From positions 1,302,001 through 1,366,000 of the forward strand of contig NZ_JAFBBQ010000001.1 in the NCBI RefSeq assembly GCF_016907255.1: a stretch of 64,000 nt of DNA, given 5' to 3'. Position numbers and translations under genes: made by a program. Shown piece after piece: positions 10,309 to 62,845 of this stretch (within the stretch, counting starts at the first letter, position 1; each line of letters starts with the position of its first letter). The DNA comes from Microbacterium keratanolyticum (GTDB lineage: Bacteria > Actinomycetota > Actinomycetes > Actinomycetales > Microbacteriaceae). The notes under the pieces are model-generated. The model did no database searches. It was not told the origin of the DNA and saw only the letters and a program-made list of their open reading frames with translations.

Positions 10309-10346
10309 GCTGTCTCCTTTGAGAGCGGGTAGTGAGAGAACGAGCG

Positions 10347-10362
10347 AAGTGGTTAACCACTT
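10347..10362. promoter_or_regulatory. FCD/FadR-type operator 1
   Basis: Perfect 16-bp palindrome AAGTGGTTAACCACTT. FadR-family GntR regulators classically recognise TGGTnnnACCA or TGGTnACCA cores. It sits just upstream of the dctQ start and probably controls the dctQM arm, bound by the regulator encoded at 11454. Confidence 0.72.
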
Positions 10363-10390
10363 TTCGACTCAATGTGCAATCCTGACGGTG

Positions 10391-10414
10391 TTCGCCTTGA
10401 AATGTCAAGGCGAA
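10391..10414. promoter_or_regulatory. Inverted repeat between the two operators
   Basis: Arms TTCGCCTTGA and TCAAGGCGAA around AATG, 10-bp perfect. It is unrelated in sequence to the flanking FadR-type sites, so it may bind another regulator or be a promoter-proximal structural element. Confidence 0.4.
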
Positions 10415-10421
10415 ATGAATG

Positions 10422-10437
10422 AAGTGGTTGACCACTT
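10422..10437. promoter_or_regulatory. FCD/FadR-type operator 2
   Basis: AAGTGGTTGACCACTT, the same palindrome as at 10347 with one change, its centre exactly 75 bp away. It lies 67 bp upstream of the dehydrogenase start, so the regulator can control both divergent arms, possibly with looping. Confidence 0.72.
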
Positions 10438-10503
10438 GCCGAAGAGTATGCAAACATCGTGCTCAGACAGCGGGGCCGACCAGCACCCCATCGAAGGAGA
10501 GAA

Positions 10504-44876: not shown

Positions 44877-45046
44877 GGCGATCCTTTCCGAGAACTTGAT
44901 TAGCCTACCAATAGTTCGTGCACTAATAGCGTGGGATGTGGGGATGCGCTCCCCGGAGCTGTGAGCGGCGGCGGGGTCGTGCGGGCGCGGGCGTTACGCT
45001 GTTGCCGGGGGCGCGGCAGCATCCCCGACGCACGCGAGGAGATGTC
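44877..45046. promoter_or_regulatory. Divergent promoter region of rhodanese and MoxR operons
   Basis: 170 bp. On the rhodanese side are two partial direct repeats CTATTAGTG and CTATTGGTA with TAGGCTAAT (minus strand, about 44899-44930), which may hold a -10 box and an operator. The MoxR side ends in CGAGGAGATGTC, the ribosome binding site. Confidence 0.4.
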
Positions 45047-46231: not shown

Positions 46232-46237
46232 GCAACC

Positions 46238-47125: not shown

Positions 47126-47594
47126 ACTGTACCCGCCGGGGCAGTACGGGTGGGGATGGATGCTGCTCGCCTTCGGCGTGCTGGCGCTTCTGATCCTGGT
47201 CGCGTGGCTCGTGCTGCTGCTCACCCGCGAGAAGCGCGAACGTTCGACAGAGACCGTCGATCCTCCGATGTCGCTCGCCGAGGTGCGTCTCGCCCTGCGG
47301 GAAGAGAACATGCGCAGCATCCAGCAGATCGAAGACGACTATCGGTCGGGCGCGATCGACGCGCGCCGTGCGCATCTGGAGTACAGCCGGGTGGTGCGGC
47401 GCTTCGTGAACGAGTACAGCGGCTTGGAGGCCCCGGTGCTCGCACTGGATGATCTCGTCCGCCTCGGGGTGCACCCGAGCCTGGTCGAGGCGATGCAGCG
47501 CAGTTACTATCCGAGCATCTTCCGCAGGGCCGAGCCCTTGGATCCGTTCGTCGGCGCGGCCGCTGCACGTCAGGTGGTGCAGTCATGGCACTGA
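47109..47594 (+). CDS. Single-pass membrane protein of the MoxR/VWA operon (DUF4381-like)
   Basis: 161 residues: one transmembrane helix at about 15-37 (GWMLLAFGVLALLILVAWLV), then a helical cytoplasmic part. The layout and position between DUF58 and VWA genes match the DUF4381 proteins of such operons, though similarity by eye is weak. Overlaps both neighbours (17 and 10 bp). Confidence 0.72.
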   Translation: MSGADELYPPGQYGWGWMLLAFGVLALLILVAWLVLLLTREKRERSTETVDPPMSLAEVRLALREENMRSIQQIEDDYRSGAIDARRAHLEYSRVVRRFVNEYSGLEAPVLALDDLVRLGVHPSLVEAMQRSYYPSIFRRAEPLDPFVGAAAARQVVQSWH

Positions 47595-48577
47595 CGTTGG
47601 CGATGCCGTGGATGCTGGTCGCCGTCGGCATCCTGATCCTGGCCGCGATCGTCGTTGGCCTGCTGCTGGGGCTGCGTCGCGGTCCTGAGGCGCGTGGCGA
47701 CAGCGGCGCACTCGTGGCCCGTGCCGAGCGGGTGCGCGCCCTTCCCTCCTTCGCCCGCGCCGTACGCCGGCGCCGTGCCGCCCTCGTCGGCGTCATCGTG
47801 CTCGGGCTCGCGGCGTCCGCTCTGGCCGCTGTCATCGCCGCGCGTCCCGTGACGGCGCAGACGATCCAGCCCGAGAACAACAGTCGTGACGTGATGCTGT
47901 GCCTGGATGTGTCGGGATCGATGAGCGACGTCGACGTCGAGGTGCTGTCGGTGTTCGAAGAGCTCGTCGAGGGTTTCGAGGGCGAGCGGATCGGACTGAC
48001 GATCTTCAACAGCTCACCCGTGCAGGTGTTCCCCCTGACCGACGACTACGCATTCGTGCAGGCGCAGCTGCAGCGCATCCGCGAGAGCTTCGACTATCTC
48101 GAGGAGATCCCGGAGCACTGGGTCGGAACGCTCAACGGACCGGGGGCCTCCCTCATCGGCGATGGCCTCGCCTCGTGCGCGATGCGCTTCGATCATGTCG
48201 ACGAAGAGCGGGCGCGCTCGATCATCCTGGCGACGGACAACGAGCTCAACGGCGAATCGGTCATCACACTCGATGAGGCGGCGGCGTTCACGGCCAGCCG
48301 GGGCATCCGCCTCTACACGATCAACCCGGTCGACGGCATCGCCGAAGCCGAGAGCACCGCCCTCAGCGACGCCGCAGCGATGACCGGCGGCATCGGCTTC
48401 GGGCTGCGTGACGCGACGACGGTCGACGAGATCATCGACGAGGTGCAGAAGCAGGAGGCGTCGACGCTGCGCGGGGAGGCGACCGTCATCCAGATCGACA
48501 CCCCTCAGCTCTGGATCGTGGCGCTCATGATCGTCGTGCTCGGTTTCCTCCTGGTGCTGTGGAGGGTGCGACTGTGA
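47585..48577 (+). CDS. VWA domain membrane protein (BatA-like)
   Basis: 330 residues. Transmembrane helices at about 8-28, 58-80 and 305-325 bracket a von Willebrand A domain with MIDAS motif LDVSGSMSDV (DxSxS) near 104 and a conserved ATDNELNGE near 217. Likely metal-dependent adhesion module operating with MoxR and DUF58, on the outer face of the membrane by the helix pattern. Overlaps the next VWA gene by four bases at its true start. Confidence 0.87.
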   Translation: MALTLAMPWMLVAVGILILAAIVVGLLLGLRRGPEARGDSGALVARAERVRALPSFARAVRRRRAALVGVIVLGLAASALAAVIAARPVTAQTIQPENNSRDVMLCLDVSGSMSDVDVEVLSVFEELVEGFEGERIGLTIFNSSPVQVFPLTDDYAFVQAQLQRIRESFDYLEEIPEHWVGTLNGPGASLIGDGLASCAMRFDHVDEERARSIILATDNELNGESVITLDEAAAFTASRGIRLYTINPVDGIAEAESTALSDAAAMTGGIGFGLRDATTVDEIIDEVQKQEASTLRGEATVIQIDTPQLWIVALMIVVLGFLLVLWRVRL

Positions 48578-49581
48578 TCCTGCAACCCGTTCTCCACCCG
48601 ATCCTGCTCGCGCTGCTGCTCGTGCCCGCGCTGGGAGTGGTGGTGTGGATGCTCGTGCGCAGCCGCTCCGCGGCCGCCCGCACTCTCTGGGTCGTGCGCG
48701 TCCTGCTCGTGCTCGCCTGCGCCGCCCTGCTGCTGCGCCCCGGCATCCCCGGCGGATCGACGCTGACACTAGCGACCGACACCGATGTCGTGATCGTCGT
48801 GGACACGACCTCCAGCATCGTCGCGGAGGACTGGGGGGACGGCGAGCGCCGCCTCGACGGCGTGCGCGCCGATGTCGACGCGCTCGTCGACGCATACCCG
48901 GGCGCGCGCTTCGCGCTCATCACCTTCGACGCCTCGGCGCAGCTGCGTCTGCCTTTGACGACGGATGCGACGGCGCTCACGACCTCAATGAGCGTGCTGC
49001 AGCCCGAGGTGACGGCGCAGTCGCGCGGAAGCTCCATCGGCATCGCGCACGATCTGCTCGCAGAGACGCTCGCGGGGGCGGCGGAACTCTCTCCGGAGCG
49101 GGCTCGTCTGGTCTTCTACTTCGGCGACGGCGAGCAGACCGCGAGCGGGGAGCCCGAGTCGTTCGCGGCGAGCGCGCCATACATCGTGGGCGGGGCCGTC
49201 TTCGGCTACGGCACGAGCTCCGGTGGGCCGATGCGGCTCACGACGGGCGGCCTGGACGCGTCCCGTGAGTACATCCAGCACGACGGCGAGCGGGCTCTGT
49301 CGGTGATCGACGAGGCCGCGCTGGAGACGATCGCCGGGCAACTGGGCGTCCCGTACCAGCACCGCACAGCCGACACCCCGCCCGACTTCCCGCCCGCGCC
49401 CACCACGACGACCGCCTACGACGACGCCCGTACCGTGGGGTCGATCATCGACCTCTCGTGGGTCGTCGCTCTCGTCATCGCGGTGCTTCTCGCGTTCGAG
49501 ATCGCGCGCGCCACGATGCTCGTGACGCGCATGCGGACACTCTCGCTGCGTGCGCCCCGCAACGAGGACGGTGCCGCATGA
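48574..49581 (+). CDS. Second VWA domain membrane protein (BatB-like)
   Basis: 335 residues: two N-terminal helices (about 5-25, 35-55), a VWA domain with a Thr-variant MIDAS motif VVDTTSSIVAED near 76 (DxTxS), and a C-terminal helix near 300-320. GTG 48574 with GGAGG 10 nt upstream was chosen rather than the GTG at 48559 inside the preceding gene. Paralogue of the upstream VWA protein. Confidence 0.86.
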   Translation: MILQPVLHPILLALLLVPALGVVVWMLVRSRSAAARTLWVVRVLLVLACAALLLRPGIPGGSTLTLATDTDVVIVVDTTSSIVAEDWGDGERRLDGVRADVDALVDAYPGARFALITFDASAQLRLPLTTDATALTTSMSVLQPEVTAQSRGSSIGIAHDLLAETLAGAAELSPERARLVFYFGDGEQTASGEPESFAASAPYIVGGAVFGYGTSSGGPMRLTTGGLDASREYIQHDGERALSVIDEAALETIAGQLGVPYQHRTADTPPDFPPAPTTTTAYDDARTVGSIIDLSWVVALVIAVLLAFEIARATMLVTRMRTLSLRAPRNEDGAA

Positions 49582-50348
49582 CGCTCACGCCTCGTCGCCG
49601 CATCCGCCGCTGGATCTTCTGGTGCACTCTGCCGCTCACGCTGGCCGCGCTGGTTCTGGTGGGAAAGATCGCGAGCATGTACGCCTTCGCGCACCACTCC
49701 GTCAGCACCTACGTCACGGGCGACTATGCCGGTTCGACACAGGCCGCGCAGGGGCAGCAGTTCTGGAACTGGTTCGAGCCGCACCTGGCCCCGTTCAACG
49801 AGGGCACGGGGCTCGCCGCATCCGGAAACCTGCCGCTCGCGGAGGCGAAGTTCGAGGAGGCGCTGTCCCTGGCGAGCGGGATGGAGGTCTGCGACATCCG
49901 AGTGAACCTCGCGCTCGTGCTGGAGTGGCAGGGGGACGCAGCGACGTCCGCCCGCGAGCCGGCGCGCGCGGCGGAGTTCTACGACCGCGCGATGACCGTG
50001 ACCGTCGAGACGCCGGAAGAGTGCGGCGACCCCGAGGCGCAGGAGCAGACGAGCGACCCGCAGCGTGATCTCGCCGACACCCTCGAGCAGCTCAAGGATC
50101 GTCTGCAGGCGAAGCAGAAGCCCGAGGAGCAGCAACCTCCACCCGGACAGCCTCAGCAGCCCGACGATCAGCAGACTCCCCCGTCTCCCCTGCCCGACCA
50201 GCAGAAACTCGACGACCTGCAGGAGAAGCTCGAGGACGGCGCGCGCGAGCGCGAGGAGATGCAGCAGGGCGGACCCGGCGACCAGCCCGGCGGATCGGGC
50301 GACCAGCCCGGTGACGGCGGATCGAACGGGACGGACAAGCCATGGTGA
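49578..50348 (+). CDS. Membrane-anchored TPR-like protein with disordered tail
   Basis: 256 residues: one N-terminal helix (about 13-35, IFWCTLPLTLAALVLVGKI), a helical-repeat segment (about 55-150; SGNLPLAEAKFEEALSLASG is TPR-like), and a C-terminal disordered Gln/Pro/Gly-rich tail of about 90 residues. The order VWA-VWA-TPR is the batABC layout of other bacteria. Overlaps its upstream neighbour by four bases. Confidence 0.75.
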   Translation: MTLTPRRRIRRWIFWCTLPLTLAALVLVGKIASMYAFAHHSVSTYVTGDYAGSTQAAQGQQFWNWFEPHLAPFNEGTGLAASGNLPLAEAKFEEALSLASGMEVCDIRVNLALVLEWQGDAATSAREPARAAEFYDRAMTVTVETPEECGDPEAQEQTSDPQRDLADTLEQLKDRLQAKQKPEEQQPPPGQPQQPDDQQTPPSPLPDQQKLDDLQEKLEDGAREREEMQQGGPGDQPGGSGDQPGDGGSNGTDKPW

Positions 50349-51436
50349 CCGACCGACCACTCACCGAGGGCGGAGCGCGATACGTGTCGAACTCCGAGGG
50401 CGCACCTCCCCTGCCCCCTCCCGGCGGGTACCGCGCAGCACAGCGACGCGGCACGGATGATCCGCAGGTCGCGGATCATCGCGCCGCCGCGGGTCCGCGC
50501 CGCACGAACGCAATCGGCTGGGTCTCCCTCTGTGCCGCCATCCTGTTCGCGTTCATCTTGCTCGTGCTGCTCGGCATCGGCCTCACCGACGTCATCTACG
50601 GCCCCACGATTCTCGCCCTGCAGCTCGCCCTCATCGGAGCGGTGGTCACCGCGCTCATCACCGCGCGCGGGCGATTGCTCGGCATCATCGCCCTTGCCGT
50701 GGTGCTGCTCTTCAACGTGGCCACGGTCGGCGGTCTCGCGGCGCTGCGCACCTCGGCGACCGGCGCCTATGACGGCGGCAAGACCGACGAGCAGCGTCTC
50801 TGGGAGGCGTATCCGGGCATCAAGGATCGCGACCCACGCAGCATCCTGAACTCCCCCTCTCTGGAGGACGTGCGCGCGCTCTCGGAGGACGTGCTCGCCG
50901 AGGTGCGCGCACGCCTGACCGCCGAGTACGGATTCGAATGGGTGCAGGTCACCGATGAGGTCCTGCGCCCCGAGCGCAACGGCTACGGCGGGGAGTCGAT
51001 GCTCGTGCAGTACACATCACCGCAGTGGATGACCACGACTCCGGTCACCGGCTACGAGCACAAGCGTGCGGTCATGACGACGGTCAGCGAGGTGCTGCTG
51101 GAGCAGGGCTTCTGGGAGATGTTCGCCTTCAACGAGCCGACCTCGGGCATCTCGCCGGACGTCATCGAGAAGATGTACGGGGCAGCCGACCCGCGCGAGC
51201 AGGTCGTGTGGGAGTGGTACTCGGACAACTATCCCGATCCGACCCGCTTCTATGCCGACATCACGGACCTCGCCAACGACCGCACGGGTGACTACCGCGC
51301 CGCGCGCGAAGCGCAGTCCGCGCGCACCGGTGAACCGCTCGAGGGCCTGAGCCTCACCGTGCTGGCCGACGAACTGCTCAGCGTCGAGAAGCGCGACGCG
51401 TTCGAAAGCGCCCTGGGGGCATACGACGGCGGCTGA
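50342..51436 (+). CDS. Hypothetical membrane protein ending the MoxR operon
   Basis: 364 residues: disordered N-terminus (to about 55), three hydrophobic helices at about 58-80, 84-105 and 108-128, and a soluble C-terminal domain of 230 residues with no recognised family (contains WVQVTDEVLRPERNGYGGES near 200). Overlaps the TPR gene by 7 bp. May be a peripheral component of the MoxR system. Confidence 0.7.
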   Translation: MVTDRPLTEGGARYVSNSEGAPPLPPPGGYRAAQRRGTDDPQVADHRAAAGPRRTNAIGWVSLCAAILFAFILLVLLGIGLTDVIYGPTILALQLALIGAVVTALITARGRLLGIIALAVVLLFNVATVGGLAALRTSATGAYDGGKTDEQRLWEAYPGIKDRDPRSILNSPSLEDVRALSEDVLAEVRARLTAEYGFEWVQVTDEVLRPERNGYGGESMLVQYTSPQWMTTTPVTGYEHKRAVMTTVSEVLLEQGFWEMFAFNEPTSGISPDVIEKMYGAADPREQVVWEWYSDNYPDPTRFYADITDLANDRTGDYRAAREAQSARTGEPLEGLSLTVLADELLSVEKRDAFESALGAYDGG

Positions 51437-51448
51437 GACGCCGCAGGT

Positions 51449-51637
51449 TCAGCGGCGCCGCGCCATCAGTCGGTAGGTGACGAATGCGGCGATCGCCGCG
51501 AGCACGAGCGACACGAGCACGCGGACGACGCCGTGCACCCCGGTGGCGGCCAGCACGACGCTGACCGTGACGAGCACGACGAAGAGAGCGACGAATGCGG
51601 CACCTCGTGCGCGCTTCCCTCGGCTCTTGTCGACCAC
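51449..51637 (-). CDS. Small two-helix membrane protein, candidate bacteriocin immunity peptide
   Basis: 62 residues: basic start MVDKSRGKRARG, helix 1 (about 13-31, AAFVALFVVLVTVSVVLAA), helix 2 (about 37-57, VVRVLVSLVLAAIAAFVTY), basic end MARRR. It is clearly similar to the 76-residue protein encoded immediately upstream (51676-51906): shared AAxxALF, VSxxLA, R-x-x-LSxxxA and the RR terminus. Last gene of the leaderless-bacteriocin-like operon, where small basic membrane proteins often confer self-immunity. Function is inferred. Confidence 0.65.
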   Translation of the reverse strand: MVDKSRGKRARGAAFVALFVVLVTVSVVLAATGVHGVVRVLVSLVLAAIAAFVTYRLMARRR

Positions 51638-51675
51638 GCACCCATCGTATTTCGTCGCGGATGCCTCCCCCGCGC

Positions 51676-51906
51676 CTACCTGCGGTTGCTCACGACCACG
51701 TGGGTCACCGCAGCCGCGATCACGCCCGCGATGATCGAGAGCACCGCCCGCAGGATGATGTGCAGATCGGTGGCGAGTGCCAGCGCGATGCTCACCACCA
51801 GGATCGTCCCGAACAGGGCGATCATCGCCGCCGTATCCGCAGCCTTCTTCTCGGTCTTCATCACCGGGGCGTCCTCTTCTCGTGGGATGGTCTTGTTCTC
51901 AGGCAT
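51676..51906 (-). CDS. Small two-helix membrane protein, candidate bacteriocin immunity peptide
   Basis: 76 residues: hydrophilic N-terminus (about 1-24), helix 1 (about 26-46, AAMIALFGTILVVSIALAL), helix 2 (about 51-71, IILRAVLSIIAGVIAAAVTH), SNRR end. Paralogue of the 62-residue protein that follows after 38 bp. Its start overlaps the ABC permease stop by 8 bp, so it is coupled to the bacteriocin-type transporter. Confidence 0.65.
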   Translation of the reverse strand: MPENKTIPREEDAPVMKTEKKAADTAAMIALFGTILVVSIALALATDLHIILRAVLSIIAGVIAAAVTHVVVSNRR

Positions 51907-52738
51907 CACGACGCCTCGCAACGATCCAGGCGGCCGTGCCGACGACGACCGTCCAGACCAGCAGCCACAGCTGCCCGGTGAGGATCTGCCCCGCGCCGAG
52001 CTCGCTGAGTGTCGAGACGGAGATCGCCTTGACCAGCAGGGCTCCGGGCATCGCCTGCGAGATCGCCGTGACGACGCCGCTCGCACCCGCGGGCAACATG
52101 CCACCGACGAGACCGGCGACCAGGGGGAACACGAGCATGAGTCCGATCACCGTGAGCACAGCGAGCACGGCAGAGCGAAACAGCACGCCGAGTGCGCTGG
52201 CGAGAATGGTCAGCCAGATGCCCGCCAGGGTCGCGGTGAGAAGAATGAGCAGCACAAGGTCGCCGTAGATGGCCGCCTGCGCGAAGATCATCGTCAGTGC
52301 TGCGATGATTCCGGTGGTGAACAGCACGGTGCCACCGCCGTAGGCGACATCGGCGAGCGTGCGCGCACCCAGGAATCGAGAGCGCCTCGGGACAACGGCG
52401 AGCGCGGTCGCAAATTGACCGCGGGTGTCGCGGGCGGCCGCAGACGTCACGGCCAGCATCAACGGAATGATCGCACCTGTCGCCGCGGCCTCCAGCGAGC
52501 CGGTCACCGCAAGGCGGAGGGTACCATCCGTGAGTTGCGCGTCCACGGCGGGAGCGACGGTGAGCAGGATCGCCAGCATCCCTCCGCCGAACGCCAGGCC
52601 GAGAGCCACAGCGATCCAGAGCCCGACGGCGATCCCGCCAGGTCGACGTCGCCGCACGATCTCGGCGCGGAGCACATCGCTCAGCCGCTGTCTCGGCAAG
52701 GACGGCGAGGCGATCTCTCCCTGTTGCACAGCGCTCAT
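51899..52738 (-). CDS. ABC transporter permease of the bacteriocin-like cluster
   Basis: 279 residues with six predicted helices in ABC-2 permease arrangement: cytoplasmic N-terminus of about 40 residues, helices near 43-65, 85-105, 135-155, 165-185, 200-222 and 252-272. Overlaps the ATPase stop by four bases and the small membrane protein start by 8 bp. In leaderless bacteriocin loci such transporters export the peptide or protect the producer. Confidence 0.83.
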   Translation of the reverse strand: MSAVQQGEIASPSLPRQRLSDVLRAEIVRRRRPGGIAVGLWIAVALGLAFGGGMLAILLTVAPAVDAQLTDGTLRLAVTGSLEAAATGAIIPLMLAVTSAAARDTRGQFATALAVVPRRSRFLGARTLADVAYGGGTVLFTTGIIAALTMIFAQAAIYGDLVLLILLTATLAGIWLTILASALGVLFRSAVLAVLTVIGLMLVFPLVAGLVGGMLPAGASGVVTAISQAMPGALLVKAISVSTLSELGAGQILTGQLWLLVWTVVVGTAAWIVARRRDA

Positions 52739-53634
52739 CTCGTTCCCTCCTGCCCGACAGGCTGAAGCCGGTCGAAGTACGTCTGCTCGATCGAGCGCTC
52801 GATGACGGCGAGGTGCGTCACGCCCGGCCCGTCCGTGTAGGCGATGCGACCGACCTCGTGCGCGCTGGCGCCATGGACGACGATCCCGTCGTCGTGGAGT
52901 CCGGCGGTGAGCCCGTGGGCCGTCAGCATGTCGAGAAGGCGTGCGGGATCCGACGTGCGTACGCGTACCGGTGGGGTGCCGTCGGTGGCGACGAAGTCGG
53001 CGACCGTCCCTTCGGCGACGATCTGGCCGCGATCGATCATCACGACGCGATCAGCGACGAGCGCGAGCTCGGTCATGTGGTGCGACGACAGCAGCACGGT
53101 CACACCGTGCCGCGCCAGGTGCACGATGTGGTCACGGAACCACTGCACGCCGGCGGGGTCCAGTCCGTTGGCGGGTTCATCGAGCACGAGCACGCGCGGC
53201 GATCCGAGCCCCGCGGCCGCGATCCCCAGACGCTGCCGCATGCCCAGCGACATCGCCCCGACGCGGGTGCGCTCGGATCCGCCGAGTCCCACCTGCACGA
53301 GTGCCTCCTGCGCGTCGCCCAGTGTGCGCCCCTGCAGCAGCGCGAGATAGTGCAGATGATCGAGCGCCCGTGCCTTCACAGGGATCGTCTCGGCTGAGAG
53401 GAAGACACCCAGGCTCTCCGCGGGGTTCGCCGCGTCCGCGAAGGGCCGGCCTTCGACGAGCACGTGCCCCTCGTCAGCGATGGCGATGCCGGCGATGATG
53501 CGCAGCACCGTCGACTTCCCGGCGCCGTTGGGCCCGACGAATGCGGTGATCTGCCCCGCCGGCGCGGTGAACGACACATCGCGCGCCGCCCGGTGCGTTC
53601 CGAACGTCTTCGAGACGCCCTTCACCTCGATCAT
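52735..53634 (-). CDS. ABC transporter ATP-binding protein of the bacteriocin-like cluster
   Basis: 299 residues: Walker A GPNGAGKSTVLRII near 36, signature MSLGMRQRLGIAAAGLG near 132, Walker B VLVLDEPANGLDPAG near 153, switch His LLSSHHMTELAL near 185. ATG 53634 was chosen; the much longer open frame upstream overlaps the PH-domain gene and is not coding. BcrA-like peptide-resistance/export ATPase. Four-base overlaps on both sides show tight coupling to the permease and to the PH-domain gene. Confidence 0.87.
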   Translation of the reverse strand: MIEVKGVSKTFGTHRAARDVSFTAPAGQITAFVGPNGAGKSTVLRIIAGIAIADEGHVLVEGRPFADAANPAESLGVFLSAETIPVKARALDHLHYLALLQGRTLGDAQEALVQVGLGGSERTRVGAMSLGMRQRLGIAAAGLGSPRVLVLDEPANGLDPAGVQWFRDHIVHLARHGVTVLLSSHHMTELALVADRVVMIDRGQIVAEGTVADFVATDGTPPVRVRTSDPARLLDMLTAHGLTAGLHDDGIVVHGASAHEVGRIAYTDGPGVTHLAVIERSIEQTYFDRLQPVGQEGTR

Positions 53635-55133
53635 CGTGTTGCCACCTCTCTGTGCGTGCGCACTCTCGCGCGGACACGCGATGCGGCCAGCGGCGCAGCC
53701 GCCTCGCCGAGCGTCGTGCGCACGTCGGTCAGGAGTTCGTGATTCCGCGTGACGGCGCGGATACTGCGGGGCATCCCGGCGAAGTAGGCGACGCGGACAC
53801 CACGCGCGCGCACCCGCGCGACGCTCACGACGCTCAGCAGGTGCACCTCCGCCGTCCGGACGAGGTCGGTGCGTTCGAAGAGGTGCTGCTCGCGAGCCCA
53901 GAGATGCGGATGCTGCGCGCTGAGCCGTCGCGTCACCAGACGCAGCACCCCGATGACGAGGAGCGCTGACGCCCCTGCCGCGATCAGAGCCAGGAACAGG
54001 GGTGGTGCCCAGAGCCAACTGGCCAGGAGGCCCGCGCCAACACTGACGCCGACGGTGAAGAGCAGAGCGGCCGCCGCAGGAAGCAGAGCCCGCCGTCCCG
54101 AGCGGTACACCAGCGCCGGCACCGGAAGAGCGCCGTTCGTCGCCTCCAGTACCGAAGCGGCGATCGTGCGCGGCAGCGCCGGAAGGATCGCGTTGGCCGC
54201 GCCGCTGCCGATCGCGCCCTGGCTCAGCAGGCGGATGCGCACGTGGTCGATCAGCATCTCCAGCGCGTTGCGGTGCGCGCGCACGCCGACGATCGAGGCG
54301 GCGTCCACCACACGATGCTGGGTCTCGATGAGTCCGTACGACAGCACCAGACGGTTGCCGTCGCGCGCAACCTCGAACCCGTGGAACCGCACGACCGCGA
54401 GAAGCATGCCCAGCACGATGATGCCGGCGGCAGCGAGCGTCGCGACCAGCGGGAGGTTCTGCAACAGCGTGGCGTCGCTCCATCCCCCGAACTGCTGCAC
54501 CACGTCGAGCGCCGCGAGCACGGCGCCGGTGCCGATCACGACGACCTGCCCCTGCACAAGACCGGAGACCAGGAGCTGACCGGTCGTCGCGCGGTAGATC
54601 GTGTCGCTTCCGACGTTCTCGCCGAGGGCGTCGTGCACCACGGGAGCGGGGACTTCAGCCACCGACTCCGGGGACGCTTCATGGCGCGGATGCGACTGCG
54701 CCGCGAGCTCGACGATCTCCGCGGCGATGGCAGGTTCGATCCCTTCGAGTTCGATCACCCCATCCGCCGTGACCTCGCCGCCGACGCGCAGCGTGAGAAC
54801 GTCGAGGTGGAGCATCCGGTACGCCCACGGCTGCGCCCGCTCCCGCACCGCGACCTGAGCCCAGGACGCCGATGTGCTGCGTCGGTTGAGCAGCCCGCGC
54901 ACCACGCGGATCCCGCTGTCGCTGAGGTCATAGCGGAGCGTCGCGACGGTGAAGACCGGCTGGAGGAGACGGGCCAGAAGGAGGGCGCCGATGAGGAACA
55001 CTCCCCAACGGCCCAGCCAGAACTGCGCGTTCGTGAGGGCGACCACCCCGACGCCCACCAGGCCGACGATCGCAGGCGCACCCTGCAGATAGGACGCGAG
55101 GACAGCGCGGGCGGGAAGGCGATGCTCAGGCAT
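53631..55133 (-). CDS. Bacterial PH-domain (bPH2, YdbT-like) membrane protein
   Basis: 500 residues: three bPH2 modules (PF03703, DUF304 type; about 60-140, 230-320 and 405-485), each preceded by a pair of transmembrane helices (about 20-55, 190-230 and 370-405). A recognisable module repeat is DLSDSGIRVVRGLLNRRST near 80, LVLSYGLIETQHRVVDAASI near 295. Together with the shorter partner just upstream it matches the YdbS-YdbT pair; such pairs recur in leaderless bacteriocin gene clusters, where they are thought to aid export or immunity. ATG 55133 overlaps the partner stop by 8 bp. Confidence 0.82.
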   Translation of the reverse strand: MPEHRLPARAVLASYLQGAPAIVGLVGVGVVALTNAQFWLGRWGVFLIGALLLARLLQPVFTVATLRYDLSDSGIRVVRGLLNRRSTSASWAQVAVRERAQPWAYRMLHLDVLTLRVGGEVTADGVIELEGIEPAIAAEIVELAAQSHPRHEASPESVAEVPAPVVHDALGENVGSDTIYRATTGQLLVSGLVQGQVVVIGTGAVLAALDVVQQFGGWSDATLLQNLPLVATLAAAGIIVLGMLLAVVRFHGFEVARDGNRLVLSYGLIETQHRVVDAASIVGVRAHRNALEMLIDHVRIRLLSQGAIGSGAANAILPALPRTIAASVLEATNGALPVPALVYRSGRRALLPAAAALLFTVGVSVGAGLLASWLWAPPLFLALIAAGASALLVIGVLRLVTRRLSAQHPHLWAREQHLFERTDLVRTAEVHLLSVVSVARVRARGVRVAYFAGMPRSIRAVTRNHELLTDVRTTLGEAAAPLAASRVRARVRTHREVATR

Positions 55134-55644
55134 CCGCGTCCGCTTCCGCGGCCACAGCGGCCCGCGCGGGGAAGACCGCCAGGATCTGCGCGCGCAGCGC
55201 CTCCGCCTCGGCAAGCGGCAGCGGTGTGAGCGTCTCACTCTCGGTCAGCGTGGCCAGCGCGAGCTTCGCGAACCCGAAGCGGCGCAGAAGCGGACCCTGC
55301 ACAACCGTGACGGTGAGGATCTGCGCTGTCGACAGCGCCAGATCCCGATGGAACAGCACCCCCCGTGAAATGAGGACACGATCGTCGTCGACTTCGTAGG
55401 TCGTGTTGCGGACGACAAGCCGATCAATCAGCGGCACATCGATCAGCAGGCCGAGAAGCGCCAGAGCGAGCACCGCACCGAGAAGTGCCGGCCGCCACGA
55501 CAAGGGGGCGAGAAACAGGATGGCGGCGCTGAGAAGCACCCCGACGATCGCGATGTCGATGAGTGAGCGAATACGCACATAGGTGACGGCCCTCGGGGGC
55601 AGGGTGCGCGAGTAGCGAGGGCGTGCGGGGGGCTCAGCGGCCAT
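55126..55644 (-). CDS. Bacterial PH-domain (bPH2, YdbS-like) membrane protein
   Basis: 172 residues: two transmembrane helices (about 28-48 and 53-72) then one bPH2 domain (about 78-150; TTYEVDDDRVLISRGVLFHR near 80, VTVVQGPLLRRFGFAKLAL near 113). First gene after the small bacteriocin-like gene, 78 bp away across a stem-loop, and coupled to the longer bPH2 protein. ATG 55644 overlaps no other gene. Confidence 0.83.
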   Translation of the reverse strand: MAAEPPARPRYSRTLPPRAVTYVRIRSLIDIAIVGVLLSAAILFLAPLSWRPALLGAVLALALLGLLIDVPLIDRLVVRNTTYEVDDDRVLISRGVLFHRDLALSTAQILTVTVVQGPLLRRFGFAKLALATLTESETLTPLPLAEAEALRAQILAVFPARAAVAAEADADA

Positions 55645-55669
55645 CAGCGTCTCCTCCGCCGGTCAAACT

Positions 55670-55711
55670 GCTGCGGGTGCGACCGACACCGATCTCGATC
55701 CCACCCGCAGC
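55670..55711 (-). promoter_or_regulatory. Stem-loop between the bacteriocin-like gene and the bPH2 genes
   Basis: GCTGCGGGTG / CACCCGCAGC, a 10-bp perfect stem with a 22-nt loop, starting 12 bp after the peptide stop. A partial terminator here would give far more peptide mRNA than transporter mRNA, the usual need for a bacteriocin operon. Confidence 0.6.
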
Positions 55712-55722
55712 GGCAGGATGGA

Positions 55723-55908
55723 TTAGCCCAGTCCCAGGATCTGCAGGATCCACTGCAGGATGGTCGCGAACGACACACCGCGCTCGATCCAGCCGAGCAC
55801 CTTCTTCCAGTTGTTGCGTGCCCACGCGATGACCTTGTTCGCCGCCGAGACGCCGATGCGCCACAGCTGCTTGGCGACCCAGGCGATGAACTTCAGGACT
55901 GCACCCAT
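55723..55908 (-). CDS. Leaderless aureocin A53/lacticin Q-type bacteriocin candidate
   Basis: 61 residues beginning MGAVLKFIAWVAKQLWRIG and ending ATILQWILQILGLG. Six Trp, five Lys, three Arg, one Glu, no Asp, no Cys, net charge about +7; amphipathic helices throughout and no double-glycine leader or signal peptide. The pattern G-x-L-K-x-x-x-x-x-A-K near the start, then NNWKKVLGWIERG and the ILG end, follows aureocin A53, epidermicin and lacticin Q (NKGKILDWLNAG, ILG end). ATG 55908 has GGAG 9 nt upstream; the ATG five codons earlier lacks a good site and would break the family start. These peptides keep formyl-Met and are active as translated. Alternative: an unrelated amphipathic membrane toxin. 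Confidence 0.8.
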   Translation of the reverse strand: MGAVLKFIAWVAKQLWRIGVSAANKVIAWARNNWKKVLGWIERGVSFATILQWILQILGLG

Positions 55909-55940
55909 ATTGACTAACTCCATTCACCACTGTGTGATGC

Positions 55941-55963
55941 CGCATTTCTCTTTGTGAAATGCG
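55941..55963 (-). promoter_or_regulatory. Hairpin in the bacteriocin-like leader
   Basis: CGCATTTC / GAAATGCG with a 7-nt loop, ending 33 bp before the peptide start codon. Positioned either in the 5' leader of the mRNA or as an operator. Confidence 0.5.
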
Positions 55964-56035
55964 ATCGGGAGTTAAGTTATGAATTGGCGCATATTCGGCA
56001 CATCGAACTTTTGCCGCTTCCTGCGCGCAATATGT

Positions 56036-56074
56036 ATTGTCGATGCGTCGATTGTCTACGAGCACATCGACAAT
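56036..56074. promoter_or_regulatory. Inverted repeat, candidate LuxR-type operator
   Basis: ATTGTCGATG / CATCGACAAT, 10-bp perfect arms around a 19-nt spacer, with further TCGAT half-sites on both sides (GTCGATT inside, GTCGAT at 56076 and 56090). It lies between the LuxR-type gene and the peptide gene. Confidence 0.5.
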
Positions 56075-56094
56075 GGTCGATAGACGAAAGTCGA

Positions 56095-56775
56095 TCATGA
56101 TCGCGTCACCTCGGCTCGTCCGCCCAAAGCGCAGAGAGCGACCTGCAGACGATCGCGAACATTCCACTTCGTCATCACACGCCCCAGATTCGACTTCACG
56201 GTCGCCTCCGAGACGTGCAGGGTCGCCGCGATCTCGCTGTTGGACATCCCCTCGGTGAGAAGTCCGACGATCTCGCGCTCGCGAGGGGCCAGGCTCTCTT
56301 CCCACCCGGACACGGGAGCCGGGCTGGCCACCGTCGGCACGCAGAGGTGGGTGAAGAGGCGGCGAAGGATCCTGCGGCACACGAACGGGTGACCGTTCGC
56401 GATCTCCTCCACCGCGCGGCGCAGTTCTGCGGGTTCCGCGTCGCGCCCGAGCACCCCCGCCGCCCCGGCTTTCAGAAGTGGGGCCACCTCGTCGACAGCA
56501 GAGGTGCGCGCCACGACGAGTACCGGCACTCCGGTTTCGGAGAGGGCGCCAACCTCGGCAGGGGCAGACTGCTCCGCGGATGCCACATAGAGGAACGCAC
56601 TCGGCGACGAAGTGAGGTCCGCGCGTACCGACGCGCCCTCGAGCATCCGCTCCTCAGAGAGCAGGTGGTGTTGCACCTGCACGCGAAGATCATCCGAAAG
56701 GAAAAGAGACAATGCCGCAGCGAACAGCGATTCTCGCGAAAGAATCACAACGGAATGCTGAACGATTTCTGACAT
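56095..56775 (-). CDS. LuxR/NarL-type regulator with degenerate receiver domain
   Basis: 226 residues. A receiver-like domain (about 5-130) starts QHSVVILSRESLFAAALSLF where active receivers have an Asp pair; the phosphoacceptor strand reads FLYVASAEQ with no Asp, so phosphorylation is unlikely. The C-terminal LuxR helix-turn-helix (about 160-220) is intact: LAPREREIVGLLTEGMSNSE and AATLHVSEATVKSNLGRVM. ATG 56775 fits the domain start; GTG 56832 or ATG 56823 are upstream alternatives. There is no sensor kinase nearby. It lies directly upstream of the bacteriocin-like gene, same strand, and is its likely activator. Confidence 0.82.
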   Translation of the reverse strand: MSEIVQHSVVILSRESLFAAALSLFLSDDLRVQVQHHLLSEERMLEGASVRADLTSSPSAFLYVASAEQSAPAEVGALSETGVPVLVVARTSAVDEVAPLLKAGAAGVLGRDAEPAELRRAVEEIANGHPFVCRRILRRLFTHLCVPTVASPAPVSGWEESLAPREREIVGLLTEGMSNSEIAATLHVSEATVKSNLGRVMTKWNVRDRLQVALCALGGRAEVTRS

Positions 56776-56998
56776 TTGTCTGGGCGCACCTAAATGGCGA
56801 TGATTGACCTGCACAGTCGTCATTTCCGGCACGAAGAAGTCGAGGCCTGGACACGACGCGTTGAAGCTAGCATCCCGCCGTTCTTCGCCGACAGGTTTGT
56901 TACAGACTTTTCCGAAACTCTTTCCGTTTGTCCCCCGTTCGGCGGACAGATCCGCGCAGATTTGCGACGAGATCCCGCCGGAAGCGGACCTGAGTCCC

Positions 56999-57004
56999 TA
57001 GAGT
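56999..57004 (+). promoter_or_regulatory. -10 box of a leaderless promoter for the Pr6Pr gene
   Basis: TAGAGT, then GATTTC, then GTG at 57011; 6-nt spacing, no ribosome binding site. Confidence 0.6.
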
Positions 57005-57010
57005 GATTTC

Positions 57011-57751
57011 GTGACCTCACCCGACCACACCGCGAGCACGCAGCGCCCCCGCACATCAGCCCTCACGCCGTCGGCCTGGGCCGTGGTGCGTCTGCTCGGC
57101 GCCGCCGCGATCATCGCCGCAGTCCTCGGCCAGCTCTCCGTCACCCTCGGCAACGCACTGTCCGATCCCACGCCGCACGGTTCGCACCTGCCGACCGTGG
57201 CCGCGAACTTCCTGAGCTTCTTCACGATCGAGTCGAACATCCTGGGCGCCCTGGCGCTCGTGATCGCCGCGATCTGGGCGTTGTCCGCCGGCCGTCGCGC
57301 CGACGTCGAACCACGCTGGCTGGGTGTGCTGATCGCGAGCACCGCGACCTACATGATCGTCACGGGCGTCGTCTACAACGTGCTGCTGCGCGGCATCGAG
57401 CTGCCGCAGGGGCAGACCGTGGCCTGGGCGAACGAGATCCTGCACGTCGTCGGGCCGCTGATCCTGCTCGCGGAAGTGCTGTTCGCGCCACAACGACGCC
57501 GACTTGGCTGGGGGACGCTCGGAGTCATCGTCGCGTTCCCGATCGTGTGGTGCGCATACACGCTGATCCGCGCGAACTTCATCATCGCTCCCGCTACGGG
57601 ACTGCCGTACTGGTACCCCTATCCCTTCCTCAACCCGCACAACTTCGACGCCGGATACGGCGTGGTGGCGCTGTACATCATCGGCATCGCCGCCGCGATC
57701 ATCGCGATCGGCGCCGGTGTCGTCTGGGTGAGCCGCAAGCGCGGACACTGA
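57011..57751 (+). CDS. Pr6Pr family membrane protein
   Basis: 246 residues with six transmembrane helices in the Pr6Pr arrangement and its conserved sequence FLSFFTIESNILGALALVIA near 67, VYNVLLRGIELPQ near 118, WANEILHVVGPLILLAEVLF near 135, and YWYPYPFLNPHNF near 200. Function unknown. Leaderless GTG start; single gene followed by a large hairpin. Confidence 0.82.
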   Translation: MTSPDHTASTQRPRTSALTPSAWAVVRLLGAAAIIAAVLGQLSVTLGNALSDPTPHGSHLPTVAANFLSFFTIESNILGALALVIAAIWALSAGRRADVEPRWLGVLIASTATYMIVTGVVYNVLLRGIELPQGQTVAWANEILHVVGPLILLAEVLFAPQRRRLGWGTLGVIVAFPIVWCAYTLIRANFIIAPATGLPYWYPYPFLNPHNFDAGYGVVALYIIGIAAAIIAIGAGVVWVSRKRGH

Positions 57752-57759
57752 CGCGTCCA

Positions 57760-59302
<1,543 letters not shown>

Positions 59303-59315
59303 GCTGATTTCTGAA

Positions 59316-59351
59316 GAACGGGCCGGATGCTTCGCAGCATCCGGCCCGTTC
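59316..59351 (+). terminator. argG terminator
   Basis: Perfect 15-bp stem GAACGGGCCGGATGC / GCATCCGGCCCGTTC with loop TTCGCA, then CTGTGT, 13 bp after the stop. Confidence 0.87.
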
Positions 59352-59402
59352 TGTGTGCCCCCGCTCGGGCGCGTCGTCCTGCGGTCCGATCCGTCGTGCC
59401 AC

Positions 59403-59436
59403 AAACTATGTTGCACATGAGTGTGCAACATAGTTT
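59403..59436. promoter_or_regulatory. Perfect TetR-type operator upstream of the TetR gene
   Basis: 15-bp perfect arms AAACTATGTTGCACA and TGTGCAACATAGTTT around TGAG. Its right end overlaps TATCCT (59436-59441), a -10 box 6 nt before the ATG at 59448, so binding would block the tetR-yhgE promoter; the transcript is probably leaderless. Confidence 0.85.
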
Positions 59437-59447
59437 ATCCTTGACGG

Positions 59448-60062
59448 ATGACCTCCCGCCCTGCCCGCTCGGATGCCCGCGCCAACCGCGCCGGAATCCT
59501 CGACGCTGCACGCAGCACGCTGGCCTCCGACCCGTACGCGAGCGTCGACGTGATCGCGCGCAGCGCGGGTCTCAGCCGACGCACGCTCTACGGCCACTTC
59601 GATGACCGCGACGCTCTGATCCGCGAGCTCATCGTCACGGGTGCACAGCGCTTCAACGCGATCGCCGAGTCGATCAGCGACGCCGACTCCCGCATTGCCC
59701 TCGCCCGACTCGCGGCACGCCTGTGGCAGGAGGCCGCGCATGTGCAGTTCGCTGCAGCGCTCGCTCTGGACGAGGCGCACGTCGAGCACACGGCCGATGC
59801 ACTCGCGCCGCTGCGCCGCGCCGTGGCACGGCTCGTGCAGCGCGGTCAGCAGGACAGCTCCTTCCGCACCGACATCCCCGCCCCCACACTCGCGCGACTC
59901 ATCGAAGAGGTCGCGCGCACGGTCGTCGCCCGCACCGACGCATCGAGCAGCGGGGCGGCCGACATCGCTGTACGTACCGTCCTGAGTATCGCCGGACTGT
60001 CGTGGCGCGAAGCCGATGACCTTCTCACCGCTCATCCGGACATCACGGAGCCCACCCGATGA
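59448..60062 (+). CDS. TetR-family transcriptional regulator
   Basis: 204 residues. N-terminal helix-turn-helix (about 12-58; VDVIARSAGLSRRTLYGHFD near 28) and a ligand/dimer domain (about 75-195). It overlaps the following YhgE/Pip gene by four bases (ATGA), so it is an autorepressed operon regulator. The perfect operator at 59403 supports this. Inducer unknown, probably a membrane-active compound handled by the YhgE proteins. Confidence 0.9.
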   Translation: MTSRPARSDARANRAGILDAARSTLASDPYASVDVIARSAGLSRRTLYGHFDDRDALIRELIVTGAQRFNAIAESISDADSRIALARLAARLWQEAAHVQFAAALALDEAHVEHTADALAPLRRAVARLVQRGQQDSSFRTDIPAPTLARLIEEVARTVVARTDASSSGAADIAVRTVLSIAGLSWREADDLLTAHPDITEPTR

Positions 60063-62845
60063 GCGCCGCCCGCCCCAACGCATGGAGCGTCTACCTCCGC
60101 GATCTCAAACGGCTGGCCCGCGTCAGCAAGGCGTGGATCATCATCATCGGCGTCATCGTCACCCCATCGCTCTACGCCTGGTTCAACATCGTCGCGTTCT
60201 GGGACCCGTACTCGAACACCGAGCAGGTCAGCGTCGCCATCGTCAATCAGGACACGGGGGCGTCATCGGAGCTCACCGGTCGCATCGACGTCGGCGGCGA
60301 ACTCGTCGAACAGCTGAAGCAGAACGACAAACTGGGCTGGACCTTCGTCGACGAGGACGAGGCCATGGACGCCGTGCGCAGCGGGCGCAGCTACGCCGCG
60401 ATCATCATCCCGCCCGATTTCAGCCGCGCCTTCGTGAGCATCACAACTGGCGAGATCACCCGCCCGGAACTGACGTACTACGTCAACGAGAAGGCCAACG
60501 CGATCGCGCCGAAGATCACCGACGTCGGCGCCTCGACGATCGACGGCCAGATCAACAGCACCTTCGTGTCCACGGTCGCCGAGGCCGTCAGCACACAGCT
60601 GAAGAAGGCAGGGGTGGATGTCGAAGGTCGCCTCGGCGACGCCCGCGACTCGACGGTCAGCGCTCTCGACAAGGCGACCGGAGAGGTCGCCGCAGCGCGG
60701 AAGGGCGTGACTGAGCTCCGGTCGGGACTGGAAGATGCCGGAACCGGCATAGACCGCGCATTCGACACCCTGAACACGGTCGATCGCACGCTCGCCGAGG
60801 TGCAGACTGCAGTGAGACAGGCACGGGGAATCGCGGACGAGGCGCAGCAGGGGTTGCTCACTCTCACCGACAGCATCACCTCGGCCTACGTCTCGGGTTC
60901 GACTCTCATCGCCGATGCCGCCGCCACGATGAACGGCTCGATCGCGACCCTGGCGTCCGGCCTGCAGCAGGCGAATGTCGCCGTCGGCACCTCGATCGCC
61001 GATCTGACCGCCGTGACTGAGACGAACGCCAGAGCCCTCGAGGAGCTGCAGGCGGTTCTCGACGACGCCCCGCCAGGGTCCGAGTCCGCAGAACGGCTGA
61101 GCGCGGCGATCGACGCTCTGAAAGCACGCAATGCCGCCGACCAGCAGGTTCTCGACCAGCTCACACAGCTGAACAGCGACGTTTCGAGCACCATCACCGC
61201 AGTCACCGGCGCCGCCGAGAGCGTGAACGGCGCCGTCGGCCGTGCCGCGGCATCGGCCACCGCCATCCGCGATGCACTCACCACGAGTGTGCCGCAACTG
61301 AACCGCGCCATGTCGCAGCTCTCGGCGAGCGCCGACGCCTTCTCAGCCGCCGTCGGCGCCCAGCGCACCCAGGTCGCGCAGGCTCAGAACCTGCTGTCTG
61401 GGCTGAAGACGCAGCTCACCGGCACCTCCGATGCTCTCGCCGCGCTCGACGGCAACCTCGCCGCCGCCGAGACGGGCCTCGGCACCGTGCGCACGGATGT
61501 GCTTGCGCTGGGGTCGGCCGAGATCTGGAACAAGCTCAGCGTCGTCACCGGCCTCGATCCCGACGAGATCGCGCGCTTCATGGCATCTCCCGTCGAGGTG
61601 AGCACGAAAGTGATGTTCCCGACGGCCGCGTACGGCTCCGCCATGGCCGCGCTGTTCACCAACCTGTCACTGTGGATCGGCGCCTTCGTGCTTATGGTCA
61701 TCATGCGTGTCGAGGTCGACACCGAGGGCGTCGAGGGCATCACCGTGCGGCAGGCGTACATCGGAAGATGGCTGCTGTTCGCGACGATCGTCGTGTTCCA
61801 GGCCGCGCTGGTCTGCATCGGAAACCTCGTGATCGGCGTTCAGACGGCGAACGCCCTCGCATATGTCGGCACAGGCATACTCATCGGCCTCGCCTACCTG
61901 AGCATCATCTACGCCCTGTCGGTGTGCTTCGGCATCGTCGGCAAGGGTCTGTGCATCGTGCTGGTGATCCTCCAGATCCCGGGCGCCTCGGGCCTGTACC
62001 CGATCGAGATGATGCCGGACTTCTTCCGCGGGCTGTATCCGTTCCTGCCATTCACCTACGGCATCGATGCGATGCGCGAGACCATCAGCGGATTCTACGG
62101 CGACCACTGGTGGCGGTTCATGGGCGTGCTGGCGATCTTCACCGGGCTGGCCTGGATTCTGGGACTCTTCCTGCGGGGGCGTCTGGGCGGCTTCGCCCTG
62201 CTCTTCAACCGGCGCCTCGCCGAGACGGAGCTGATGGTCAGCGAAGACGTGCAGATCACCGGTCGGCGGCGCATCCCCGAGATCATCCGCGCACTGACGG
62301 ACGGAGACGGGTTCCGCGCCGACGTCGCACGTCGTACGCAGCGCTTCGACGAGCGATACGCGACCCGGCTGCGCCTGACGCTGCTCGTCGGCGCCGGTGT
62401 GCTGGTCGTGCTCGCGCTCTGCGGGTGGCTGATCCCGGGTGCGAAAGCCGTCGTGCTCGGCCTCGGCGCGCTCTGGTGCCTGCTGCTCATCGCCGTCCTC
62501 GTCACGCTCGAGTACCTGAGACAGAGCATCGAGCAGGCGGCCGAGGTTGCGATGATGCCGGATGCTGATCTGCGCCGTGCCCTCGCCGTCGAGAGTTCCG
62601 GGGAGCGAGAGGTGCTCACCACGCCCGTCGATGCGCACCCCGATCGGTTCGACGTTCCTGCACCGGAGCCAGAGCCAGCGCTCGAGCCCGAGTCCGAGCC
62701 CGAACCCGAGCCCGAGCCCGAGCCCGAGCCCGACGACACCCTCGTGCTGGATGAGCTGTTCCCTGAGGTGCCGGATGTGGACGAGGTCACCGACGTCGAC
62801 GCAGACAGCCCCGCGCTTCCGGACGAGAAGGAGGACGAGAAGTGA
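60059..62845 (+). CDS. YhgE/Pip domain membrane protein
   Basis: 928 residues. The N-terminal region shows the YhgE/Pip start (KAWIIIIGVIVTPSLYAWFN near residue 20-40, one helix), a conserved AIVNQDTGASSELTGR near 60 and IIIPPDFSRAFVSITTG near 118. A long extracytoplasmic coiled-coil domain follows (about 150-500), then five to six transmembrane helices (about 510-730, ABC-2-permease-like), another helix pair near 775-815, and a Glu-Pro-rich tail (about 860-928). Bacillus YhgE and lactococcal Pip (phage infection protein) are the named relatives; related proteins act in export or phage adsorption. Regulated by the adjacent TetR repressor. Confidence 0.87.
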   Translation: MSAARPNAWSVYLRDLKRLARVSKAWIIIIGVIVTPSLYAWFNIVAFWDPYSNTEQVSVAIVNQDTGASSELTGRIDVGGELVEQLKQNDKLGWTFVDEDEAMDAVRSGRSYAAIIIPPDFSRAFVSITTGEITRPELTYYVNEKANAIAPKITDVGASTIDGQINSTFVSTVAEAVSTQLKKAGVDVEGRLGDARDSTVSALDKATGEVAAARKGVTELRSGLEDAGTGIDRAFDTLNTVDRTLAEVQTAVRQARGIADEAQQGLLTLTDSITSAYVSGSTLIADAAATMNGSIATLASGLQQANVAVGTSIADLTAVTETNARALEELQAVLDDAPPGSESAERLSAAIDALKARNAADQQVLDQLTQLNSDVSSTITAVTGAAESVNGAVGRAAASATAIRDALTTSVPQLNRAMSQLSASADAFSAAVGAQRTQVAQAQNLLSGLKTQLTGTSDALAALDGNLAAAETGLGTVRTDVLALGSAEIWNKLSVVTGLDPDEIARFMASPVEVSTKVMFPTAAYGSAMAALFTNLSLWIGAFVLMVIMRVEVDTEGVEGITVRQAYIGRWLLFATIVVFQAALVCIGNLVIGVQTANALAYVGTGILIGLAYLSIIYALSVCFGIVGKGLCIVLVILQIPGASGLYPIEMMPDFFRGLYPFLPFTYGIDAMRETISGFYGDHWWRFMGVLAIFTGLAWILGLFLRGRLGGFALLFNRRLAETELMVSEDVQITGRRRIPEIIRALTDGDGFRADVARRTQRFDERYATRLRLTLLVGAGVLVVLALCGWLIPGAKAVVLGLGALWCLLLIAVLVTLEYLRQSIEQAAEVAMMPDADLRRALAVESSGEREVLTTPVDAHPDRFDVPAPEPEPALEPESEPEPEPEPEPEPDDTLVLDELFPEVPDVDEVTDVDADSPALPDEKEDEK
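62684..62731 (+). repeat. Hexanucleotide tandem repeat in the YhgE tail
   Basis: Eight GAGCCC-type units (two with one change: GAGTCC, GAACCC) encoding alternating Glu-Pro. Six-base steps keep the frame, so unit-number change alters tail length only. Confidence 0.85.

Follow-up and report, generated by a model that had tools for sequence, protein, structure and literature searches.

A probable leaderless, aureocin A53-type bacteriocin locus in Microbacterium keratanolyticum, with two small membrane proteins as candidate immunity determinants

Several leaderless bacteriocin systems have been described, and they are summarized here from the accessible portions of the papers cited. DdE and DdF are needed for the export of enterocin DD14, and LnqC/LnqD as well as Orf7/Orf8 of aureocin A53 resemble the YdbS/YdbT proteins (PMC8657885). 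ATP-binding cassette (ABC) transporters provide a second route and/or protection (PMC8657885, PMC13262744, PMC10598978). Immunity to enterocin DD14 is conferred by DdD (PMC13262744), and the immunity gene of lactolisterin BU, immL (hyp2), encodes 169 amino acids (aa) with five predicted helices (PMC6249370). In Actinomycetota, 97 aureocin A53-type peptides have been reported, Microbacterium having singletons and seven multi-peptide operons (PMC11580447, Hourigan et al. 2024). We analyzed a stretch of 64,000 nucleotides from Microbacterium keratanolyticum (contig NZ_JAFBBQ010000001.1, positions 1,302,001 to 1,366,000; "the window"), focusing on a gene cluster at 51449-56832 on the minus strand. 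This is probably a leaderless aureocin A53-like bacteriocin locus, of a kind whose occurrence in actinobacteria has already been published. The first-pass annotation had proposed an aureocin A53/lacticin Q-type locus in an unaccustomed high-GC actinobacterial setting. The locus is indeed there, but the setting is not new, since PMC11580447 (in the part available) reports such peptides, Microbacterium included, and its table may list the exact peptide of the window. We put at roughly 0.88 the probability that the locus serves the making, export and tolerance of an aureocin A53-family leaderless bacteriocin consisting of a single peptide, a figure that applies to the bacteriocin locus as such.

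We observed that the ATG at 55908 opens a peptide of 61 aa with six Trp, no Cys, five Lys, three Arg, one Glu and no Asp (net charge +7), and that the GGAG which the first-pass annotation had noted before this ATG ends 9 nt upstream of it. An alternative start at ATG 55923 gives a 66-aa reading, and the database entry (P0001) is also 66 aa long. ATG 55908 is the likelier start, since the GGAG falls inside the coding region of the 66-aa reading, and since the start column of ATG 55908 is common to 10 of 14 aligned rows (window included; the starts of the database rows are gene-caller choices). The shared start column and the position of the ribosome-binding site support a peptide made without a leader. 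The peptide passed the NCBIfam model NF033881 (aureocin A53 family class IId bacteriocin), with 33.9 bits against a cut-off of 27 over residues 20-59. Its AlphaFold model (pLDDT 91.8) has helices at 2-13, 15-18, 20-32, 34-42 and 47-58. When the 30 highest Foldseek-ranked chains were re-aligned, the best solved matches were 6sif, 2n8o and 2n8p, so that epidermicin NI01, aureocin A53 and lacticin Q took the top three places, in line with the likeness to lacticin Q proposed earlier. The peptide is thus predicted to adopt a compact four- to five-helix saposin-like fold.

We also evaluated how widely such peptides occur. With a profile built from the 14 rows, 124 candidates from a set of 5.8 billion proteins were scored, and 58 of them reached E ≤ 0.01. 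Aureocin A53 family class IId bacteriocin is the name given to some of these (from Microbacterium, Paenarthrobacter, Arthrobacter and Clavibacter), Cellulomonas and Nocardioides contribute hypothetical proteins, and many are unnamed; only 3 of the 58 carry a PF11758 label. The closest relative, besides the window's own entry, was P0008 (72% identical). The window's own genome has one match to the peptide. We further scanned the 64-kb window for short, Trp-rich, cationic open reading frames; this returned the peptide and one unrelated frame of 39 aa (40250-40369), and a second core peptide in the cluster was rejected. A plasmid location was likewise rejected, the peptide having no match at E ≤ 1 among 72,556 plasmid records.

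The features of the locus, from upstream to downstream, are as follows (sm1 and sm2 denote the two small membrane proteins).

56095..56832, minus strand: LuxR/NarL-type regulator, 245 aa, with a degenerate receiver domain (PF00196, 56.1 bits)
55909..56094, minus strand: intergenic stretch between regulator and peptide, probable promoter (sigma-70-like site)
55723..55908, minus strand: gene for the probably leaderless bacteriocin peptide, 61 aa (NF033881, AlphaFold fold)
55126..55644, minus strand: YdbS-type bPH2 membrane protein, 172 aa (PF03703, 47.2 bits)
53631..55133, minus strand: YdbT-type bPH2 membrane protein, 500 aa (PF03703 in two stretches, 30.5 bits)
52735..53634, minus strand: ABC transporter ATPase, 299 aa (PF00005, ABC_tran, 91.2 bits)
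51899..52738, minus strand: ABC permease, 279 aa (by position, and by weak similarity to relatives' proteins at the equivalent place)
51676..51906, minus strand: sm1, 76-aa two-helix membrane protein, immunity candidate (family distribution, predicted helices)
51449..51637, minus strand: sm2, 62-aa paralogue of sm1 (alignment with sm1)

Every gene that the first-pass annotation had called here was found at its coordinates and on this strand, and the close spacing that it described was confirmed. A gap of 78 bp separates the peptide from the YdbS-like gene, which overlaps the YdbT-like gene by 8 bp. The YdbT-like gene and the ATPase, and the ATPase and the permease, overlap by 4 bp each, the permease and sm1 overlap by 8 bp, and sm2 follows sm1 after 38 bp. 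These genes would form a single transcription unit.

Both bPH2 assignments held, being above the PF03703 cut-off of 22 bits, as did that of the ATPase. Leaderless bacteriocins of the aureocin A53 type usually, though not always, have a bPH2 pair and an ABC transporter beside them. The YdbS-type protein is the counterpart of LnqC, Orf7 and DdE by domain, size and order, and the YdbT-type protein that of LnqD, Orf8 and DdF. The proposed permease stands by its position and by weak matches to proteins at the equivalent place in L001 and L019; it has no Pfam match. No known RNA family reached its gathering score within 48000-60000. The gene argG lies within a few kb of the cluster both in the window (57857-59302) and in Microbacterium sp. 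SA39 (L001 16665-18098), on opposite sides of it, which could reflect an insertion hotspot or coincidence.

The gene set was compared across twelve loci, namely those of the window, G156 (SA39), G010, G310, G056, G177, G008, G194, G738, G479, G015 and G302. Ten of these were found by the peptide, and those of G015 and G302 by the YdbT-type bPH2 protein; G010, G310 and G056 are closely related, so that the counts of loci are not independent. The bPH2 pair was present in all twelve (10/10 without the two chosen by bPH2). A LuxR/NarL-type regulator was present in eleven, G738 showing a weak short match about 5 kb off. The ABC ATPase and permease were found in nine (the permease being assigned by position in several), and an sm homologue in eight. 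Gene order varied. The bPH2 pair precedes the ABC genes in the window and follows them in G177 and G010, and in G008 the ABC genes lie beyond a kinase/regulator pair. In the window and G156 the sm genes lie downstream and point the same way as the operon; in G010, G310, G056 and G177 they are divergent and upstream, and in G479 sm is at the cluster end on the opposite strand.

The peptide profile matched eight of the 366 genomes searched within the genus, and peptide and YdbT-type protein co-occurred in seven (chance 1.7e-12, an indicative value, since relatedness among the genomes makes them dependent samples). At the family level, NF033881 matched three of 398 genomes at E ≤ 0.001, with the own genome and G738 above the cut-off and G479 below it. 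In G194, the genome with the peptide only, the bPH2 pair is more divergent and falls below the YdbT threshold. Its locus (L018 7925-8077, plus strand) has a 50-aa lacticin Q-like peptide, the bPH2 pair and a regulator, and a kinase is encoded on the other side; within the 16 kb neither ABC nor sm gave a match. When the window's YdbT-type protein was used as bait, nine of the 366 genomes matched at E ≤ 1e-20, and a peptide lay near it in all nine (seven by profile, two by reading of the locus). The latter two, G015 and G302, encode cationic peptides of 66 aa, rich in Trp, next to the bPH2 pair (L023 6370-6570, plus strand; L024 9238-9438, minus strand), with no ABC or sm match in the surrounding 16 kb. 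The G015/G302 peptide is 28% identical to that of the window in the alignment, and was missed by the peptide profile. This result bears out the suggestion in PMC11580447 that PH-domain proteins can be used as driver sequences. The 58 proteins found by the profile, together with the recurrence of the gene set in other genomes, place the locus beyond chance.

We then considered sm1 and sm2. The two are 39-40% identical in two alignments (40% in alignment A3), each has two hydrophobic segments, and neither has a Pfam or NCBIfam model above cut-off. The structure prediction of sm1 gave two helices. The family was present in 12 of the 366 genomes, seven of them among the eight in which the peptide was detected by profile (hypergeometric 3.8e-11). 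A wider search, in which the 8000 candidates with the most shared words were scored, found at least 18 proteins at E ≤ 0.001, and the named ones were all hypothetical proteins.

In G290, a lone sm gene (E 3e-18) is flanked by an SDR gene and an enzyme gene that lie 615 bp apart; in G177 the same two genes enclose the entire bacteriocin cluster, about 5.6 kb long. When 38 relatives of G177 were searched, the SDR gene was found at E ≤ 1e-100 in nine, G177 included; in G280, G358, G321, G350 and G171 both flanking genes are adjacent with no sm match, and in three other SDR-bearing relatives the second flank was not shown. A second lone copy occurs in G130 (E 1e-20; L033 8287-8508, minus strand), with neighbours unlike those of the window's or G177's cluster. 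Both lone genes are open and have GGAG-type ribosome-binding sites, and in five comparisons their dN was 0.29-0.40 against a dS of 0.78-1.22 (54 codons, hence rough). In the sm tree, one fork of seven was supported (95/91), and it unites the two lone copies with those of G010, G310 and G177. The loss of toxin genes with the retention of one small membrane gene is a usual signature of an immunity gene. As the lone sm at the cluster site of a peptide-less relative shows this orphan-immunity pattern, sm is the leading immunity candidate, and we hold with modest confidence that it acts as a dedicated immunity protein. It is a specific and easily testable candidate for the actinobacterial branch. 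In the accessible parts of the literature, we found no immunity gene in print for actinobacterial members of the aureocin A53 family, and none of the titles and abstract openings described this locus or sm. A weak sm-like gene of G277 (L035 7674-8180, minus strand) stands beside a kinase/response-regulator pair of the bacteriocin-cluster type (8629-10784); no peptide was detected in G277, and this locus is possibly a remnant.

A different role for these proteins, within the same bacteriocin locus, is that of small accessory subunits of the ABC exporter, with immunity provided by the ABC genes or the bPH2 pair. All eight sm-bearing loci also have the ABC pair, and sm1 of the window overlaps the permease. 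Moreover, for aureocin A53, enterocin DD14 and enterocin MR10, the ABC transporter has been linked to transport and/or immunity (PMC8657885, PMC13262744, PMC10598978, in the parts available). However, no bPH2 gene or cluster-type permease was found around the lone sm of G290 or G130 (16 kb each). The one ABC ATPase-like match in G290 is about 2.3 kb off, at 31.6% identity, and adjoins what we interpret as iron-siderophore importer genes. In addition, sm is divergent from the operon in G010, G310, G056 and G177, and G738 has the ABC pair without sm. We therefore regard the accessory-subunit role as rather doubtful, and prefer that of sm as an immunity protein.

The regulator had its own peculiarities. 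It has a GerE domain (PF00196) and no receiver-domain match, and in the alignment Ser/Arg stand for the acid pair (Asp-Asp in canonical relatives), Tyr for the phospho-acceptor Asp and Arg for the conserved Lys; the window's Asp column lies beside a short insertion, so that its partner is approximate. The G479 regulator has Glu/Arg, Gly and Ala at the acid-pair, Asp and Lys positions, and that of G156 is partly degenerate, keeping one acid and the Asp with Trp for Lys. The receiver residues are canonical in G010, G310, G056, G177, G008, G194, G015 and G302, and, with the exception of G177, each of these has a histidine kinase gene close to the regulator. With two kinase queries (E ≤ 1e-4), no kinase was found in the examined stretches of the window (45001-64000), G156, G479, G177 and G738. 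Thus, a kinase match is lacking at all three loci whose receiver is degenerate in full or in part, and also in G177, whose receiver is canonical. As the phosphorylation residues are lost in the window, the switch is probably something other than a kinase, and we consider it probable that the regulator is an orphan that works independently of phosphorylation. LuxR-type control of a bacteriocin has a precedent, since PMC12844061 (in the part available) refers to the LuxR-family protein CerR, which regulates the lantibiotic cerecidin. In G008, an apparent C-terminal piece of a LuxR-type regulator lies just upstream of the peptide (L017 8447-8644, minus strand), and the kinase/regulator pair is elsewhere in the cluster.

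Upstream of the peptide, we observed a sigma-70-like site at 56058-56029 (minus strand), one being found against 0.4 expected over 51300-57010. TCGAT/ATCGA occurred six times in 55909-56110 against 1.8 expected, a weak excess reached in 33 of 2000 shuffles. These boxes were rejected as a conserved operator, there being none in G156 and G479 and one each in G177 and G008.

The degenerate receiver and the lack of a kinase match could also mean that the cluster is silent, with its genes present but unexpressed. Against this, none of the eight genes is interrupted and their packing is tight, and atypical receiver domains are common in actinobacteria. G156 and G479 have kept the operon despite receivers that are degenerate in part or in full and the lack of a kinase match, which suggests a working alternative mode of regulation. 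A silent cluster therefore seems improbable to us. A peptide that is mainly surface-active or signalling, like the AMEP412-type elicitors, is most improbable, since this second NCBIfam match (NF040841, AMEP412 family response elicitor; 22.9 bits, E 8e-5) is far under its cut-off of 45 and membership was rejected, whereas NF033881 was passed, solved bacteriocins were the best structural matches, and the bPH2/ABC genes are the set that accompanies leaderless bacteriocins.

Several observations tell against the bacteriocin reading or the immunity role given to sm within it. The first-pass annotation had also looked to PF11758 (Bacteriocin_IIi), and here the peptide fell short of the gathering score (11.4 against 25 bits, E 0.3), although the alignment covers nearly the whole model (4-51 of 51); PF11758 was therefore rejected as a membership criterion. 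When three relatives were scanned with NF033881, two passed and one failed, P0005 (63% identical) staying under the cut-off at 22.9. The miss of PF11758 and the score of P0005 place this peptide clade near the edge of the models. A direct sequence search of the PDB had BacSp222 and lacticin Q as its top two matches, at weak E-values of 0.04-0.05. The ABC pair is missing from 3 of the 12 loci (G194, G015 and G302) and sm from four (G194, G738, G015 and G302). No peptide was detected in five of the 12 genomes with sm (G130, G290, and G277, G096 and G097, the last three with weak sm matches, E 1e-8 to 1e-5), so that sm is neither universal in nor exclusive to peptide loci. The sm model is of low confidence (pLDDT 69), and the lone copy in G290 may be either a remnant or an independent gain at the site. 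PMC10598978, in the part available, mentions orphan immunity genes, but those that it describes for a leaderless enterocin are ABC transporters and not small proteins.

Taking these together, we favour the bacteriocin locus, which may work as follows. The product translated from ATG 55908 would be a cationic helical bundle of 61 residues, rich in Trp, that needs no leader removal to be active. The two bPH2 proteins would be the core export apparatus, and the ABC ATPase and permease a second route of export or protection. sm1 and sm2 would serve as dedicated immunity proteins, shielding the membrane from internal and incoming peptide. The NarL/LuxR-type regulator directly upstream would drive the operon, probably switched in this species by something other than a kinase, and the released peptide would permeabilize the membranes of competing Gram-positive bacteria. 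A broader proposal, for which we see even odds, is that sm1/sm2 are a new two-helix immunity family associated with the long actinobacterial leaderless bacteriocins (57-64 residues) and kept as orphans by peptide-less Microbacterium species, and that in this clade an orphan regulator independent of phosphorylation, which may sense the peptide or another ligand directly, has taken over from a kinase/response-regulator pair.

When we compared the locus with known systems, enterocin DD14 offered a likeness of organization, with the PH-domain pair DdE/DdF as exporter, the ABC genes DdGHIJ as a second route and the membrane protein DdD as a dedicated immunity determinant. However, enterocin DD14 is a two-peptide, L50-like system and the window a single-peptide one, and DdD has three predicted transmembrane segments (PMC13262744) against the two helices of sm. 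The locus of Corynebacterium jeikeium pA501 likewise encodes an actinobacterial aureocin-type peptide in the vicinity of ABC and PH genes. Unlike the window, it is plasmid-borne and has a DUF2089 gene and a 92-aa membrane protein. The plasmid loci L026, L027 and L028 (Corynebacterium jeikeium, Parageobacillus and Lactiplantibacillus) have a DUF2089 gene followed by an apparent membrane protein of 92-102 aa. Among the small proteins of these three loci there was no convincing match to sm, pA501 giving the best six-frame E of 0.047.

Aureocin A53, lacticin Q and epidermicin NI01 share with the window peptide the family NF033881, the helical-bundle fold (predicted for the window), a Trp-rich, Cys-free and cationic composition and, apparently, the lack of a leader. 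The YdbS/YdbT-like pair and an ABC transporter are further features that aureocin A53 and lacticin Q have in common with the window (PMC8657885). The three peptides differ in length (51-53 residues, against 61) and are about 29-34% identical to the window peptide in structural alignment, and the lacticin Q regulator is the TetR-type LnqR (PMC6131525), whereas that of the window is of the NarL/LuxR type. The aureocin A53 peptides of Actinomycetota (PMC11580447; arcanocin, arachnicin and Microbacterium clade C) are of the same phylum, genus and peptide family. The text of that paper, in the part available, names no immunity gene for them; like the window, they have PH-domain and ABC genes nearby, and the peptide of Microbacterium sp. 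SA39 is 62% identical to that of the window.

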